A stretch of 33,769 nt of DNA, taken from Clostridia bacterium (GTDB lineage Bacteria > Bacillota > Dehalobacteriia > Dehalobacteriales > Dehalobacteriaceae). The stretch is from positions 1-33,769 of the forward strand of contig DUPU01000135.1 in the NCBI GenBank assembly GCA_012838175.1. The letters run 5' to 3'. Positions 24,186 to 32,271 of this stretch are shown piece after piece (position 1 is the first letter of the stretch; each line of letters starts with the position of its first letter). Both the position numbers and the translations under genes were made by a program. The notes beneath the pieces were generated by a model. The model worked only from the letters and a program-made list of their open reading frames with translations, ran no database searches and was not told the DNA's origin.

Positions 24186-26348
24186 TTATTCTTTAGTTAA
24201 ATCTTTTCCCACAATTTCGCCAATGGTAACTTCCAGTCCCTCATCCTGGGAGGTTTGGGGAAAATCATCTTTCGCCTTTTCTTCATTTACTCCGGGAGAG
24301 TTTTCCATAGTATCCCCAGGTAGGTCAAGGGCTTCCTTAATGCTTAGGCTAATTCTCTTTGCCTCTTTATCAACGCCTAATATTTTCACTTTTACTTCAT
24401 CACCGGGTGATACCACATCTTCGGTTTTTGCTACCCGATGATGAGCAAGTTGAGAAATATGGGCTAACCCTTCAACCCCTGGTTCCAATTGAATAAAGGC
24501 ACCAAAAGGAGCTGTGCGCATAACTTTGGCGTCTACAATAGCGCCAACAGGATATTTTTCATCCACAGTATCCCAGGGATTGGGTAAAAGCTGTTTTAAC
24601 CCTAAAGATATTTTCTCCTGCTCCCGATCCAAGGCTAAAATATATACCTCCAGTTCATCTCCCTCTTTCAGGACATCGGCAGGATGGTTCACCCGATACC
24701 AAGCCATTTCGGATACATGAAGCAAGCCGTCAACACCTCCGATATCCACAAAGGCGCCAAAACTGGTTAAACGACGCACCACACCTTTTACAGTTTGACC
24801 TTCACTGATTTTTTCCCAGGTTTCTTTTTTACTTTGTTGGGCTTCTTCCAGTAAAACTGCTTTGGCGGAAAGAACCAGTTTATTGCTGGACCGTTCACAT
24901 TCAATCACTTTCAGGCGGATTTCCCTGCCTACATATGGCTTCAAGTCCTCGACAAAACCCATTTCCACTAAGGAAGCAGGGATAAAGCCCCGAACTCCCA
25001 CATCCACTAATAATCCACCCTTAACCACTTCAATAACTTTTCCGGTAACTATTGCTCCAGTTTCCAAGGCATTATTTAATCTTTCCCAGTTTTTCTCCTG
25101 ATCCACCCGGCGTTTGGATAAAACAGGGTGCCCCTCATCATTTTCTCTCTTTAGCACCAGAACTTCTATTTGGTCGCCCACTTTAAGAGCGTCATGTATA
25201 TTTTCTGCTTCATAGGCAGAGAGCTCAGAACGGGGGATTATGCCCTCAGACTTGCCCCCTACATCTACAAGTACTTCCGTATCACGTACCTGAACTATTG
25301 TACCGGAAATTCTTTCACCCCTGCGCACACGTTTAATGTCTTTGTCATATGCTTCAGCAAAAGACGGTTCGGTACTATTCTGGGTCTCTCCTTCTACTAA
25401 TGGCTCCTCTGCGGGTAGATCATTTTGAGGTTTTTCATCTGTTCCTTTTTGTGCTTCTTCATTTGCTGTTATTTCTGATGCTGTTTCTGTTGTTACTTCT
25501 GTCCTTTCCTCTTGATCAGTAAATTCCATCATCCTCTGTAATACCTCCTTAATAATCCAATCTGGGGTAGATGCCCCAGCAGTTACACCTACTTTCTTTT
25601 TACCTTTGAACCATGAAAAATCTATATCATTTACTTCCTCTATATGATATGTAGGTGTACCTGCTTCACTTGAAATCCGGGCCAATTTTTTTGTATTGGC
25701 ACTATTTAATCCTCCAACAATCAGTACAAGATCAACTTCTTTAGCCAATGCTAAAGCTGATTCTTGTCTTTCGGCTGTGGCATGACAAATAGTATTGTAT
25801 ATTGTCAAGTTTTCTTTCCTTTTTTTTAAGACATCCACAACCTGTTGGAAGTTTTGGTCCGATTGAGTAGTTTGAGCAATCACCCCAACCTTGTCCCCGA
25901 GAGGTACTGTTATTGCTTCCATAGGATTTTCTACCACTACAGCGGAATTATTTGACCAACCCACAATACCTTCAACTTCAGGGTGGTTTTTATCACCCAC
26001 CACCACTACCGAGTAACCTTGTTCGGATAAATCCTTGGCAAATGACTGGGCTTTTTTTACAAACGGACAAGTGGCGTCAATCAATGAAATATTCTTTTCT
26101 TTCGCCAGGGTAAAAACTTCCGGCTTAACTCCGTGGGACCTAATAATGGCATAGTTTCCTTCAACCTGATTTAAATCGTCTACTCCAACAATCCCTTTCT
26201 CAGCCAGTCTTTTAACTTCCTGAGGATTATGAATCAAGGGACCTATTGAATATACTCTCCCAAATTGTTTGGCAGCATCTTCTGCAAATTGCAGAGCTCT
26301 TTTTACACCAAAGCAAAAACCGGCGTTTTTTGCCAAAACTACTTGCAA
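24186..26348 (-). CDS. ispH-rpsA: Fused HMBPP reductase (IspH) / ribosomal protein S1
   Basis: The N-terminal half is IspH, the 4Fe-4S enzyme making IPP and DMAPP in the last MEP-pathway step; the C-terminal half is an S1-like mRNA-binding protein. IspH cysteines are visible at residue 12 (GFCFGVKRA), 94 (DATCPFVKK) and 188 (NTICHATAERQ). An acidic, low-complexity linker (about 278-340) leads to four S1 repeats beginning near residues 346, 430, 515 and 600, of which the third (GQTVKGVVRRLTSFGAFVDIGG) is the most canonical. I set the start at TTG 26346-26348, 8 nt after GGAG (720 residues). This fusion is established in Clostridia. The protein links isoprenoid synthesis to translation, for unknown reasons. 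Confidence 0.95.
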   Translation of the reverse strand: MQVVLAKNAGFCFGVKRALQFAEDAAKQFGRVYSIGPLIHNPQEVKRLAEKGIVGVDDLNQVEGNYAIIRSHGVKPEVFTLAKEKNISLIDATCPFVKKAQSFAKDLSEQGYSVVVVGDKNHPEVEGIVGWSNNSAVVVENPMEAITVPLGDKVGVIAQTTQSDQNFQQVVDVLKKRKENLTIYNTICHATAERQESALALAKEVDLVLIVGGLNSANTKKLARISSEAGTPTYHIEEVNDIDFSWFKGKKKVGVTAGASTPDWIIKEVLQRMMEFTDQEERTEVTTETASEITANEEAQKGTDEKPQNDLPAEEPLVEGETQNSTEPSFAEAYDKDIKRVRRGERISGTIVQVRDTEVLVDVGGKSEGIIPRSELSAYEAENIHDALKVGDQIEVLVLKRENDEGHPVLSKRRVDQEKNWERLNNALETGAIVTGKVIEVVKGGLLVDVGVRGFIPASLVEMGFVEDLKPYVGREIRLKVIECERSSNKLVLSAKAVLLEEAQQSKKETWEKISEGQTVKGVVRRLTSFGAFVDIGGVDGLLHVSEMAWYRVNHPADVLKEGDELEVYILALDREQEKISLGLKQLLPNPWDTVDEKYPVGAIVDAKVMRTAPFGAFIQLEPGVEGLAHISQLAHHRVAKTEDVVSPGDEVKVKILGVDKEAKRISLSIKEALDLPGDTMENSPGVNEEKAKDDFPQTSQDEGLEVTIGEIVGKDLTKE

Positions 26349-26439
26349 CTTTTTCACTCCTATTAGTCTATCACATTTCCGCAAACATAATTTCTATTCG
26401 GTAAAAAAAAAAATATTCCTGCATAAATTAACAATTTTT

Positions 26440-27805: not shown

Positions 27806-29089
27806 CTACAAGGATTCCAGAAGAGGAAAAAAGTTGGGAAAAGAGATATTAACACATTCAGCATTCTCAATGGTTGTCTCTCCTTGAGCAACTCTGGCTG
27901 CTACAGCCAAAGCCATGGCAATTCTGTGGTCATGAAGACTGTTTACTCTTGCTCCTTGCAAGGGACGGCCTCCGTTAATAACCATTCCGTCTTCCCGGGG
28001 CAAAATATCCATACCCAGTTTAGCCATTTGAGATACAATCCCCTGTATTCGATCCGTTTCTTTTACTCTTAACTCACCGGCGTCTTTAATGACCGTTTGA
28101 CCGACAGCATGGGCAGCTGCCACCGTCAAAACCGGAATTTCATCGATCAAACGGGGAATATCCGCTCCGGAAACAGTCACCCCATGCAATGTCCCATATT
28201 TTATTACTACATCAGCCACAGGTTCCCCTGCTTCATTTCTTTTGTTTTCGAAACTAATTTTTGCGCCCATTTTCTTTAGTATATCTATTATTCCTGTCCG
28301 GGAAGGATTAATTCCCAAGTTTTCCACAATTAATTCGGATTTGGGTGTAATAGCAGCCAATACCATAAAAAATGCAGCTGAAGAAATATCCCCGGGGACA
28401 ATTATTTTCTGACCACTAAGGCGGGGCAGTCCTTTAATTGATACTTTAACACCCTCCTCTATGATCTCCGCGCCAAAAGATCGGAGCATGCGTTCAGAAT
28501 GATCACGGGATTTAACAGGTTCTTCCACAATAGTGGTTCCATTCGCATACAATCCTGCCAATAAAAGAGCGGATTTAACCTGAGCACTGGCCACCGGAGA
28601 GCGATAATGTATTCCCTGGAGGTTTCCCCCTCTTACAGCCAGAGGTGCTTTTTTCCCTTGTTCTCTTCCGTCAATGGATGCTCCCATCATCCGTAATGGG
28701 TGGACAACCCGACCCATGGGACGATTGTTTAGAGATGCATCGCCTGTAATAATACTGTGAAAATCTTGACCCGAGAGCAAACCTAAAAGAAGCCTCATCG
28801 TAGTCCCGGAGTTTCCTGCTTCTAAAACTTCCCTTGGTTCTTGCCAGCCAAACAAACCTTTACCAAGCACTTTTAACCGGCCGGGCCCAAGTATTTCTAC
28901 ATGGATACCTAATTTTTGAATACATTTTACCGTACTCAGACAATCTTCACTCATCAGGAATCCCTTAATCTCCGTAGTACCTTCAGCGATACTGCCCAAA
29001 AGAACAGCCCGGTGAGAAATCGACTTATCCCCAGGCACCATAATGCTTCCCGTTATCCTTTTATTTTTGTTTTTAATGCTTATTACCAC
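27806..29089 (-). CDS. aroA: 3-phosphoshikimate 1-carboxyvinyltransferase (EPSP synthase)
   Basis: Joins shikimate 3-phosphate and PEP to form EPSP, the sixth shikimate step. The sequence contains ITGSIMVPGDKSISHRAVLLGSIAEG, the loop EAGNSGTTMRLLLGLLSG typical of the Gram-positive (class II) type, DASLNNRPMGRVVHPL, IPRLIDEIPVLTVAAAHA with the catalytic Asp, and RVKETDRI. I place the start at GTG 29087-29089, 7 nt after AGGAG, giving 427 residues; the frame extends to ATG 29140, overlapping aroF by 4 nt, but that ATG has only weak ribosome-binding sequence and adds 17 residues not usual for the family. Confidence 0.95.
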   Translation of the reverse strand: MVISIKNKNKRITGSIMVPGDKSISHRAVLLGSIAEGTTEIKGFLMSEDCLSTVKCIQKLGIHVEILGPGRLKVLGKGLFGWQEPREVLEAGNSGTTMRLLLGLLSGQDFHSIITGDASLNNRPMGRVVHPLRMMGASIDGREQGKKAPLAVRGGNLQGIHYRSPVASAQVKSALLLAGLYANGTTIVEEPVKSRDHSERMLRSFGAEIIEEGVKVSIKGLPRLSGQKIIVPGDISSAAFFMVLAAITPKSELIVENLGINPSRTGIIDILKKMGAKISFENKRNEAGEPVADVVIKYGTLHGVTVSGADIPRLIDEIPVLTVAAAHAVGQTVIKDAGELRVKETDRIQGIVSQMAKLGMDILPREDGMVINGGRPLQGARVNSLHDHRIAMALAVAARVAQGETTIENAECVNISFPNFFPLLESL

Positions 29090-29136
29090 AGCTTCTCTCC
29101 TCTTATAAATGACCTTGCCCGACAAATCTTCAAATT

Positions 29137-30156
29137 TCATGCTCCCAAGGTCCGCCCCACTGCTTTGGCTACAGCAAACGTTTCTACCATTAATTTTTGA
29201 AAATTATCTCCCGTCAATGATTGAGGCCCGTCGGATAAGGCCTCATCCGGGTAAGGATGTACTTCTATGATTAATCCGTCGGCTCCGCATGCGACAGCGG
29301 CTTTTGACATGGGAGTAACTAAAGACCACTTGCCTGTACCATGGCTGGGATCCACAATGACAGGCAGGTGCGTTAAACTTTTTAATAAAGGGACAGAACT
29401 TAAATCCAGAGTATTTCTGGTTGCCGTTTCAAATGTGCGAATTCCCCGTTCACAAAGGATGACCTTATCATTTCCTCCTGCCATGATATATTCTGCTGCT
29501 AAAATCCATTCCTCAACAGTGGATGAGGGGCCTCTTTTTAATAAAATCGGTTTGCATGTATTTGCAACCTCTTTTAGAAGAATAAAGTTTTGCATGTTTC
29601 GGGCTCCGATTTGTAAAATATCAGCATACTCTGCCACCAATTCCACACTTTTTGTATCCATCACTTCAGTAACAATAGGCATCCCGGTAATTTCCCGCGC
29701 TTCGGCCAAAATCTTCAATCCTTCTTCTTCCAAGCCTTGAAAAGAATAAGGGGATGTGCGGGGCTTAAAAGCTCCTCCCCTGAGGATGGTGGCGCCCGCT
29801 TTCTTCACAATTTTTGCTGTTTCAATTAATTGATCTCGATTTTCTACGGCACAGGGCCCGGCCATGACCTGTATTTTTTCAGATCCGATTTCCAGGTTAT
29901 TTACCCTGATTATCGTTTTTTCCGGCTTATAATCCTTACCGGCTAATTTATAAGGACGCAAAATAGGTATGACTCTTTCTACTCCTTCCATAGCCTCCAC
30001 CGCAATACAACCTGATCCTTTATTTTCACCCACTGCCCCGATTATCGTCCTTTCCACCCCTTGGGAAAGATGAATATTATAACCTTCTCTTTTAAGTCGC
30101 TCAACCACTTTATATATTTGTTCATCATTTGCTGCATGGTTCATTACGACAATCAT
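29137..30156 (-). CDS. aroF: 3-deoxy-7-phosphoheptulonate synthase (DAHP synthase, type I beta)
   Basis: Condenses PEP and erythrose 4-phosphate, the first shikimate-pathway step. The 339-residue protein has an N-terminal ferredoxin-like domain (residues 1-80, [21 protein letters not shown]) and a (beta/alpha)8 barrel with [61 protein letters not shown] and [10 protein letters not shown]. This extra N-terminal domain is a known site of feedback regulation in the type I beta subfamily. It precedes aroA and follows the TrpF-like gene. Confidence 0.97.
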
Positions 30157-30183: not shown

Positions 30184-30732
30184 TTAACGGAAAATTTCAC
30201 GGAGCAAACCGGGTAAAATCTTCGGGTCATTAACAGTCAGGTCCCATTGTATCCCATAAGGTTGGTAATTCTTTATCGCTTGAGTCCACTCACTGAGAGT
30301 TAAATCTCCGCTGAGAATTAGGGATGGTTTTTTCATATTTTTTACGTCAACACCGGTCAATATTCCAGAGTTTAGCTTTAAGACAATCCCGTGCAGATCA
30401 TAATCTTTTAACCGGGCTATATCTTTTTGTTTAAAGGTTTTGATAATATGTTCCGGATATCTTTCCAAATCCTCCGGTTGTTCCTGACCTAAAAAATGCA
30501 GGGTATCCAAACGGCAAAAGGTCACCAGCTCTTGGATGTGATATCTCTTTTCATTCACAAAAATACCTACCCGGGAAATAAATACCGGGAGATTGAAAAA
30601 AATATCCCGGGCTGTTTCAGGATGTACATCATCCATACCGTAGCCCATTTTTATGCCTATAGCCGATGCTCCGAGGGATACGGCATTTTCTGCATCGCAA
30701 ATGTTTTTTATTCCTGTCATATATAATCTCAT
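30184..30732 (-). CDS. TrpF-like barrel protein lacking the catalytic residues
   Basis: A 182-residue protein aligned to phosphoribosylanthranilate isomerase: the family's KICGITN start is YMTGIKN here, followed by DAENAVSLGASAIGIKMG, VFISRVGIFVN, and LDTLHFLGQEQPEDL. The general-base Cys is Thr6; the Asp of the VLLD strand is replaced (GIVLKLNSG); the phosphate-binding GGTG, LAGGL and SGVE elements are absent or altered (ILSGDLTL, WDLTVND). It is therefore probably not an active isomerase. It is slightly short for the family (about 200). It sits between aroH and aroF, with its ribosome-binding site inside the end of aroH, and no trp genes nearby. The role is unknown; sequence and context are the evidence. 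Confidence 0.8.
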   Translation of the reverse strand: MRLYMTGIKNICDAENAVSLGASAIGIKMGYGMDDVHPETARDIFFNLPVFISRVGIFVNEKRYHIQELVTFCRLDTLHFLGQEQPEDLERYPEHIIKTFKQKDIARLKDYDLHGIVLKLNSGILTGVDVKNMKKPSLILSGDLTLSEWTQAIKNYQPYGIQWDLTVNDPKILPGLLREIFR

Positions 30733-30735
30733 AAT

Positions 30736-31101
30736 TCACCTCATTGTTAAATCAGGTCTTAATTTTTCTGCCTCCTTTAGGTAAATGTGTTTTATTTCCT
30801 TCTGAGTTTTATCCGTATTTATGTGGAGCATTACCCTGATGATACCTTTGGCGCTGCCGGGTACATTCATCTCCCAACCACACATCATCGGCACATGATG
30901 CCATCCTATCTCCCTGGCAAAACGGGCGGGAAATTCCGCATCCAAATCAGTTGTTACCGAAAAAAAGGCACTGGCGATATCTGTAATATCTATCTCATTT
31001 TTCTCTACTATTTTCTGAAGCAATTCTTGGGTGGCTTTTCTGATTTCTTCTCTCGAATTATTCTCCACCGATATTGCTCCCCTAACCCCTCGCACCGGCA
31101 T
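30736..31101 (-). CDS. aroH: Chorismate mutase, AroH type
   Basis: Converts chorismate to prephenate for phenylalanine and tyrosine. The 121-residue protein belongs to the small monofunctional trimeric class: MPVRGVRGAISVENNSREEI, AFFSVTTDLDAEFPARFAREIGW, VPMMCGWEMNVPG with the active-site Cys-Glu, IIRVMLHINT with its Arg, and HIYLKEAEKLRPDL with its Tyr. The key residues of B. subtilis AroH (Arg7, Cys75, Glu78, Arg90, Tyr108) have recognisable counterparts. It lies between the HutP-family gene and the TrpF-like gene. Confidence 0.96.
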   Translation of the reverse strand: MPVRGVRGAISVENNSREEIRKATQELLQKIVEKNEIDITDIASAFFSVTTDLDAEFPARFAREIGWHHVPMMCGWEMNVPGSAKGIIRVMLHINTDKTQKEIKHIYLKEAEKLRPDLTMR

Positions 31102-31111
31102 CTAATCCCTC

Positions 31112-31528
31112 CTACATTACCGCGCGATGGGCCAAACCAATGGCCACATCATCCAAATGGATCATCCCAATACCAAAGAATACAGCCACGCTAATATGGT
31201 CTTGATATCGAGCAATACCGATTTTACCGCCAATATTTAATCCAATCCCTTTGGGCATAATCTGGGATAAAGCCTCGTGGGTTGCTCCCGCTACCGCACC
31301 TTCATCGGGATGGGTATCTTTGATGACACCTTCTCTTTTAGCAGCAACCACTGCCCGTTCAATTACTTTGGCAACAGAAGTTAAAAACTCTCCGCCATAA
31401 TCCACCGCCGCAGTACGAATACCTTGTGCCAGATAAACTTTTTTTAATTCTTTTTCTTCTTCCCGGCTTTCTGTTAAGGCCATTTTAACGGCAACTGCCG
31501 CCACCTTTTTACTACCAAAAGGCACCAT
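31112..31528 (-). CDS. HutP-family protein, probable RNA-binding regulator
   Basis: HutP is an L-histidine- and Mg-dependent RNA-binding antiterminator of the Bacillus hut operon. This 138-residue protein is recognisable as a family member by length, by GVIKDTHPDEGAVAGATHEAL in the middle, and by the C-terminal ISVAVFFGIGMIHLDDVAIGLAHRAV, which parallels the end of HutP. The two HALYH-type metal-binding histidines of B. subtilis (73 and 77) are not at the same places; histidines occur at nearby but shifted positions. The ligand may therefore differ. No hut genes are near; it heads the aroH-aroF-aroA operon. The ATG follows AAGGAGG. The family call is good, the regulated target is inferred. 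Confidence 0.78.
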   Translation of the reverse strand: MVPFGSKKVAAVAVKMALTESREEEKELKKVYLAQGIRTAAVDYGGEFLTSVAKVIERAVVAAKREGVIKDTHPDEGAVAGATHEALSQIMPKGIGLNIGGKIGIARYQDHISVAVFFGIGMIHLDDVAIGLAHRAVM

Positions 31529-31543
31529 GTTTTATCCTCCTTT

Positions 31544-31603
31544 TCAAAATAAATTCATGAAAAAACCAAAAAACACTCCATCGGGAGTGTCGTATTTTAC
31601 CAT
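31544..31603 (-). CDS. Possible leader peptide of the HutP-aroH-aroF operon
   Basis: A 19-codon ORF (MVKYDTPDGVFFGFFMNLF) begins at ATG 31601-31603 after AAGGATGGTGAT, nearly a full Shine-Dalgarno match, and ends with TGA just before the ribosome-binding site of the HutP-family gene. Its codons cover both arms of the terminator at 31573-31590. It has Tyr at codon 4 and five Phe codons; four of these follow from the T-tract itself, so the aromatic richness is not independent evidence. This ORF has no recognised homologue. Confidence 0.5.
   Translation of the reverse strand: MVKYDTPDGVFFGFFMNLF
31573..31590 (-). terminator. Intrinsic terminator in the leader, probable attenuator
   Basis: A perfect 7-bp stem ACACTCC/GGAGTGT with a 4-nt loop is followed in the minus direction by TTTTTTGGTTTTTT. 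It lies between the operon promoter (31634-31662) and the HutP-family gene, about 45 nt before the latter. It could also end transcripts of the upstream membrane protein gene. Because it follows a promoter and precedes the operon genes, attenuation is likely. Confidence 0.8.
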
Positions 31604-31633
31604 ATTATCACCATCCTTCCATTCTGCAAATAT

Positions 31634-31662
31634 ATTATAAAAAACATGGGATAAAATAGCAA
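31634..31662 (-). promoter_or_regulatory. Sigma-A-type promoter of the HutP-aroH-aroF-aroA operon
   Basis: TTGCTA (31657-31662) and consensus TATAAT (31634-31639) are separated by 17 nt, just after the stop codon of the upstream gene. The start would be near 31627, giving a leader of about 100 nt. Confidence 0.72.
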
Positions 31663-31665
31663 CAC

Positions 31666-32166
31666 TTATTTGAACTTAACCTGCCCGAAGGATTCTACCG
31701 TACTGTCGGTTTGGATTACCTGATGCAGATCTGGGGCGGAAATATTAGGTGAAATTTCACTAATCACAAATTCTAATTTTCGATTATAAAAAGTACCGTC
31801 AATTTTTATTGTATCACCCGGATATACCTTTATAGTTACTTTCTTGTTGCGAAAATCAGCAATTTCTACATCGTTAAGTAAAACTTTTGCTTTGGATAAG
31901 GAAGAAAAATCCATAAGTTCCACAGTAAGATGGGCAAAAACAGATGATTCTGCATCCATTACCCGGGCGGAAGGATTGGACCATTCCGGAAAGGGCTGTC
32001 CTTCCAGCCGTTCTGCCCAGCTAAGGTAAAACCTCATAGAGTCGGAGGTGAGCATTGCCTGCACCCCCACTAAAGCTACCAGACCAAAAATTACCACCCT
32101 AACTAAGATTTTCTCCCCATATTCCACCAAAACCCAAAAATTCCCCTGCCATCTTCTTTTAATCAA
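31666..32166 (-). CDS. Membrane-anchored protein of unknown function
   Basis: A roughly 166-residue protein with a basic N-terminus (KRRWQGNFW), one transmembrane segment (about residues 21-39, ILVRVVIFGLVALVGVQAML), and an extracytoplasmic domain of about 125 residues that ends in beta-like strands (KAKVLLNDVEIADFRNKKVTIKVYPGDTIKIDG). It has no Cys and no catalytic motif I recognise. The frame begins with GTG at 32175, which abuts GGGGA; TTG at 32164-32166, 8 nt after GGGGAG, is the better start. The downstream aro operon promoter starts right after its stop. I cannot assign a family. Confidence 0.7.
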   Translation of the reverse strand: MIKRRWQGNFWVLVEYGEKILVRVVIFGLVALVGVQAMLTSDSMRFYLSWAERLEGQPFPEWSNPSARVMDAESSVFAHLTVELMDFSSLSKAKVLLNDVEIADFRNKKVTIKVYPGDTIKIDGTFYNRKLEFVISEISPNISAPDLHQVIQTDSTVESFGQVKFK

Positions 32167-32271
32167 ACCAATCACTCCCCGCCTATCTAAGAATAAACCA
32201 TGCTATCCCCAAGCTTGATTTTATTGGCCAAGTTTTCTTTATCCTTATAAGATATGCGGTAGTGAAATGTT

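Follow-up and report, generated by a model that had tools for sequence, protein, structure and literature searches.

To our knowledge, textbook accounts of HutP are limited to histidine utilisation. In Bacillus subtilis it is a hexamer that a ligand activates for RNA binding, its sites have 4-nt spacers, and we take His73, His77 and His138 to be its metal and L-histidine site. The B. subtilis protein binds clusters of NAG repeats and acts as an antiterminator (PMC7430163), the opposite of the feedback sense that we propose below. No prior description of a HutP attenuator of aromatic genes with NAG triplets 8 nt apart (NAG-8) was found in the open-access papers searched.

The window analysed here is a stretch of 33,769 nt, contig C85 of its genome. 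Its family is represented by three other species in the genome set. The window holds an aromatic operon whose leader appears to be a protein-controlled attenuator. We estimate a probability of roughly 0.7 that a HutP-family protein, together with an aromatic signal, binds a NAG array in this leader and sets the terminator readthrough of its own operon. Sequence comparison gives good support to the attenuator, to its gene set and to its putative link to HutP.

Leader and aromatic operon in the window

The preliminary description had listed a promoter, a 19-codon ORF, an intrinsic terminator and the gene order hutP-aroH-trpF-like-aroF-aroA. All of them are present on the minus strand (Table 1). 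It had also noted a near-perfect Shine-Dalgarno sequence. This sequence is present, but it is supplied by the second unit of the NAG array.

Table 1. Features of the leader and its operon, and a second array in the same genome.
Feature	Position	Strand	Remarks
Promoter-like TTGCTA-17-TATAAT	31634..31662	-	10/12 consensus matches; start expected near 31627
NAG unit 1, CAGAATGG	31619..31626	-	with unit 2, the only such site across the 33.8-kb window
NAG unit 2, AAGGATGG	31611..31618	-	8 nt after unit 1; earlier taken for Shine-Dalgarno
Shine-Dalgarno-like AAGGATGGTGAT	31618-31607	-	overlaps the array's second unit
19-codon leader ORF MVKYDTPDGVFFGFFMNLF	31544..31603	-	L037 and L038 have comparable ORFs, the wider family does not
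Intrinsic terminator hairpin GACACTCC-CGAT-GGAGTGTT	31572..31591	-	compensatory arm changes among homologous leaders
Terminator U-tract (T6 GG T6)	31560..31573	-	
hutP-family gene, proposed array-binding regulator	31112..31528	-	PF09021 1.5e-49; predicted fold matches PDB HutP
aroH, chorismate mutase type I	30736..31101	-	Pfam
TrpF-like gene	30184..30732	-	weak PRAI match, 25 bits (Pfam)
aroF, DAHP synthase with ferredoxin-like domain	29137..30156	-	Pfam
aroA, EPSP synthase	27806..29140	-	Pfam
Second NAG-8 array with terminator (CACACC..GGTGTG), L175	G000:C14:17334-17351	-	window's own genome

The promoter-like site is not significant alone, because shuffles of the AT-rich region yield 1.9 such sites. 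Its -35 element and 17-nt spacing are identical, and its -10 element is kept, in both leader-bearing relatives. These are Candidatus Formimonas warabiya DCMF (L037) and G001 (L038). The terminator lies on the correct strand and is one of two found, with 0.3 expected. A T-tract follows its hairpin (ACACTCC-CGAT-GGAGTGT, about -10.4 kcal/mol). The array lies upstream of the hairpin, with about 20 nt between them, and the NAG cluster does not overlap the terminator. Rfam covariance models gave no leader match, T-box or other, in the window or in 12 loci.

The upstream gene (31666-32175) ends less than 100 nt before the hairpin, which could be merely the end terminator of that gene, with no regulatory role. 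This explanation is scarcely credible. The promoter between the end of the upstream gene and the hairpin is kept in three genomes, and the hairpin accompanies the array and hutP, aroF or transporters in different gene contexts too, one of them on a further contig of the window's genome.

Downstream of the aromatic genes, the window also encodes a 732-aa ORF (24186-26384, minus strand) that by eye presents an IspH-like domain fused to S1 repeats.

The repeat array and the leader ORF in related genomes

The homologous leaders have in common NAG triplets every 8 nt and a terminator, not the ORF. From 106 copies, the consensus of the unit is NAG-G/A-A-Y-G-G, with N being T in 47, C in 36, A in 18 and G in 5. 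The arrays contain two to five or more NAG triplets, and that of the window only two. In 42 curated leaders, a set partly selected for this property, the AG-AG distance of 8 occurs 71 times against 21±4 expected. The leaders of DCMF and G001 retain TAGGATGGAAGG..., the start codon and the hairpin. In a leader from another family (L042/L072), TAGGATGGCAGGACGG and the CACTCC..GGAGTG hairpin are kept and no ORF runs through the hairpin; this suggested the repeat rather than the ORF as the element. Further leaders were obtained from hutP upstreams, and some of them have other complementary arms (such as ACATTCC/GGAATGT, GACACC/GGTGTC and GCACCC/GGGTGC).

The pattern of array plus terminator gave 17 matches in 399 genomes of the phylum. 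They precede hutP-aroH(-trpE), aroF(-tyrA) and amino-acid-type ABC binding proteins, with two exceptions: one kinase-like gene and one chance match near a reverse transcriptase. Array leaders before hutP-aroH, aroF and amino-acid transporters are present in at least a dozen families. The second array of the window's genome (L175) precedes the genes of a TrpX-type substrate-binding protein (PF04392) and of a permease, with extra TAG triplets further upstream. The hairpin-only pattern was uninformative as a search key in the same 399 genomes. No relatives of the leader were found in plasmids.

Some other sites were observed. In L082 (genome G369), the gene that follows a NAG-8 array with terminator encodes a GHMP-kinase-like protein, by eye beta-RFA-P-synthase-like and not obviously aromatic. 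In L105 (G099), the NAG unit TAGGACGGTGAT stands at the hutP ribosome-binding site, which suggests translational control in some relatives. A c-di-GMP-I riboswitch (46 bits; L073:1703-1787, plus strand) lies near the hutP leader of G200, on the opposite strand. Finally, the HutP-less genome G064 carries a long minisatellite of the same 8-nt unit (AGAACGGC/A; C1:2057113-2057378), partly open as a repeat protein and probably unrelated.

The ORF could act by ribosome-mediated attenuation, being translated through the hairpin and sensing the supply of tyrosine or phenylalanine. The leaders of the window's family agree with this. All three (window, DCMF and G001) have an ORF through the hairpin with ATG and Shine-Dalgarno, and 14-15 nt lie between the start codon and the hairpin core CACTCC. 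However, such an ORF spans the hairpin in 14 of the 42 homologous leaders, against 8.5±2.5 expected, which is near chance. The Shine-Dalgarno of the ORF is a unit of the NAG array, the peptide and the frame diverge after the loop, and codons for Phe, Tyr or Trp form no run before the hairpin. Between the window and its nearest relative, a 1-nt loop insertion breaks the frame after the loop. The changes in loop length in DCMF and G001 cost the reading frame beyond the loop. In shuffles, the probability of an ORF spanning the window's hairpin was 0.25 with at least a weak Shine-Dalgarno, which does not exceed chance, and 0.013 with a strong one. The codons of the ORF also bear out the caution, given with the preliminary description, that the Phe codons come largely from the T-tract. 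Considering the leader count, the broken frame and the lack of a cognate codon run, the proposal of the ORF as a sensor is not supported, and ribosome-mediated attenuation is quite improbable. The preliminary description had itself named homologous leaders with the hairpin and a frequently broken ORF as refuting its reading, and outside the window's family the hairpin is indeed kept and the ORF often broken. As a conserved element the ORF was rejected there, and a comparable one exists only in the window's own family.

Both elements might be combined. HutP on the array would block leader translation and lead to termination, so that the protein would gate a ribosome-mediated antitermination. 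In the window's family, the second NAG unit would also provide the leader ORF with its ribosome-binding site, and the ribosomes on this ORF would cover the 5' arm of the terminator. The array, the start-codon distance and the ORF through the hairpin are kept in 3/3 family leaders, and the window has no strong RNA antiterminator. We regard this combination as unlikely.

The HutP-family protein and the TRAP alternative

The HutP of the window scores 167.9 bits against PF09021 (curated cut-off 25). A HutP fold is predicted for it by an AlphaFold2 model (pLDDT 90.5). In the fold search, the best PDB matches were all HutP (query TM 0.70-0.80), and only HutP structures match well. When the PDB was searched by sequence only, with the window protein or a family profile, HutP was missed; the fold search detects it. 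The hutP gene adjoins aroH in 60 of 82 hutP loci and in many cases is the first gene after the array. The metal-binding histidines of B. subtilis HutP align with G76, G80 and L124, which are invariant (Gly/Gly/Leu) in 32 homologues, although the pairwise alignment is weak. From these residues, the effector of this clade is likely to differ from that of B. subtilis HutP. No HutP relatives were found in viral contigs. The window's genome encodes a second, divergent HutP-family gene (G000:C202:514-897, minus strand, L002; 114 bits) near a flavoprotein-like gene.

We searched the motif AGN3GGNAG upstream of aroF, a gene not selected for arrays, in 30 HutP-positive and 30 HutP-negative genomes, one per family. 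The motif was present in 20/30 HutP-positive upstreams (shuffles 3.4±1.8) and in 2/30 HutP-negative ones (2.9±1.4; Fisher 2e-6). With a stricter two-unit pattern, the values were 12/30 and 0/30. One of the two HutP-negative cases (L260) looks genuine; the genome is 94% complete, and its family otherwise has HutP members. Among hutP upstreams not chosen by motif, AGN3GGNAG occurs in 17 of 116, against 4.6±2.0. When all unselected hutP upstreams were taken together, the plain AG spacing was not significant (z 1.3), because most hutP genes lack an array directly upstream.

A search for the array only gave 22 sites in 80 HutP-positive genomes, most of them before aro or transport genes. In 80 HutP-negative genomes, used as control because the reversed array pattern still matches the repeat, no site preceded an aro gene. 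The few HutP-negative sites were in coding sequence, in a minisatellite or in other non-aro places. The sampling was of one genome per species and the families are not independent; the presence of HutP and that of the array may each follow lineage.

The arrays could instead be sites for TRAP (MtrB), with tryptophan as the signal. We considered this protein because the 16 genomes first found with arrays all encode it (16/16). Its gene set also overlaps that of the arrays. Nevertheless, TRAP is common in the phylum anyway (50/80 genomes). Of the 16 TRAP genomes searched for canonical (G/U)AG-N2 arrays, 15 have them, separate from NAG-8. Several of these arrays stand before trpE in the same operon, in the stretch that separates it from aroH. 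There were none in five TRAP-less genomes of family f10 and none in the window's genome. The NAG-8 arrays have a spacing of 5 nt with N mostly T or C, and they lack the TRAP hallmark of 9-11 (G/U)AG repeats at 2-3 nt. In family f10, which has HutP and no TRAP (0/5), NAG-8 arrays precede hutP, two of them with terminators. None of four TRAP-positive, HutP-negative genomes has an array before aroF. Two of the three TRAP-less aroF matches look like chance on inspection. Considering the background frequency, the separate canonical sites and the TRAP-less genomes with arrays, we rejected TRAP as the main binder, and this explanation is very unlikely.

Canonical TRAP-type GAG/UAG arrays with terminators were seen in L208, L222, L209, L215 and L216. 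Such arrays precede phenylacetate-CoA-ligase-like genes (G001, DCMF) and DctP-like binding proteins (names by eye). They suggest an unusual TRAP regulon in the phylum.

Comparison across genomes shows the leader of array plus terminator, its gene set, an apparent dependence on hutP presence and a difference from TRAP sites. The leader and gene set across relatives support the initial suggestion of a transcription attenuator of the aromatic operon. Three controls had been offered for it. HutP-family binding is the one best supported by comparison, from the aroF test, the TRAP-less family f10 and the predicted fold.

Direction of control and relation to described attenuators

The RNA from the promoter would carry two NAG triplets at its extreme 5' end, followed by the terminator and the operon. 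HutP, produced from the first gene and loaded with a signal of aromatic amino-acid supply, would bind the array in the nascent RNA. The bound protein would decide whether the terminator forms, and would control its own operon. The same leader elsewhere in the genome would put an ABC transporter under HutP control. We infer the binding, the ligand and the direction of control. In a feedback sense, which we consider the most likely and prefer moderately, the binding of HutP would release the terminator and switch the operon off, a TRAP-like logic. This preference rests on the antiterminator that, in many relatives, the array can form with the terminator's loop and 5' arm.

Over 34 non-redundant leaders, pairing between the array and its own 5' arm and loop amounts to -10.2 kcal, against -9.2±0.3 kcal in permuted pairs (4 in 10,000). 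The controls gave 0.011 with GC matching and 0/200 with dinucleotide shuffles. A family-wide partition-function test of the antiterminator was only 1.8 sd above shuffles. The window has a weak pairing of -5.1 kcal, which does not exceed that of shuffled sequences, and its 5' arm is paired at 0.16 against 0.59 in shuffles. Folding of the nascent RNA gave an antiterminator of about -10 kcal in DCMF and G001, and of -3.4 kcal in the window. Across the family the support for antiterminator pairing is moderate, and a stable antiterminator in the window itself is not supported.

The main rival to feedback is the same HutP/NAG attenuator working in the sense of hut. Bound HutP would prevent the terminator, and the operon would be on when aromatic amino acids are scarce. 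With the 5' arm of the window unsequestered, transcription would terminate by default, and the operon would need an activator. This mechanism is known for HutP (PMC7430163). On the other hand, the array here is upstream of the hairpin and not inside it, and the complementarity between array and 5' arm across the family exceeds that of permuted pairs. We consider the hut-like sense possible but doubtful.

If HutP does control these leaders, a clade of HutP proteins whose effector site has changed would regulate the synthesis and transport of aromatic amino acids throughout the phylum, and it would work beside TRAP in the same genomes. It would also account for hutP adjoining chorismate mutase in most of these genomes. 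The defined RNA motif (NAG-N5 repeats with a terminator), the candidate protein and the gene set make the ligand, the binding and the direction directly testable.

Compared with the leader-peptide attenuators (trp, pheA), the window's family presents a similar short ORF overlapping the terminator. However, no cognate codon run precedes the hairpin here, and the ORF is not conserved in the wider family. The TRAP trp attenuator is alike in its xAG triplet arrays, which can overlap the antiterminator, in the aromatic pathway and in the protein-controlled termination. It differs in spacing (5 nt here, 2-3 in TRAP), in the triplets (T/C-AG here, G/U-AG in TRAP) and in their number, which is low here. 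Separate TRAP sites coexist in the same genomes and operons. The B. subtilis hut attenuator shares a HutP-family protein of the same predicted fold, NAG clusters in the leader, an intrinsic terminator and hutP as the first gene. In contrast, the genes controlled there are for histidine degradation and here they are aromatic. The repeat has here an 8-nt period with a conserved G-A-Y-G-G spacer, the array is upstream of the terminator and not within it, and the metal-binding histidines are replaced by invariant Gly/Gly/Leu.
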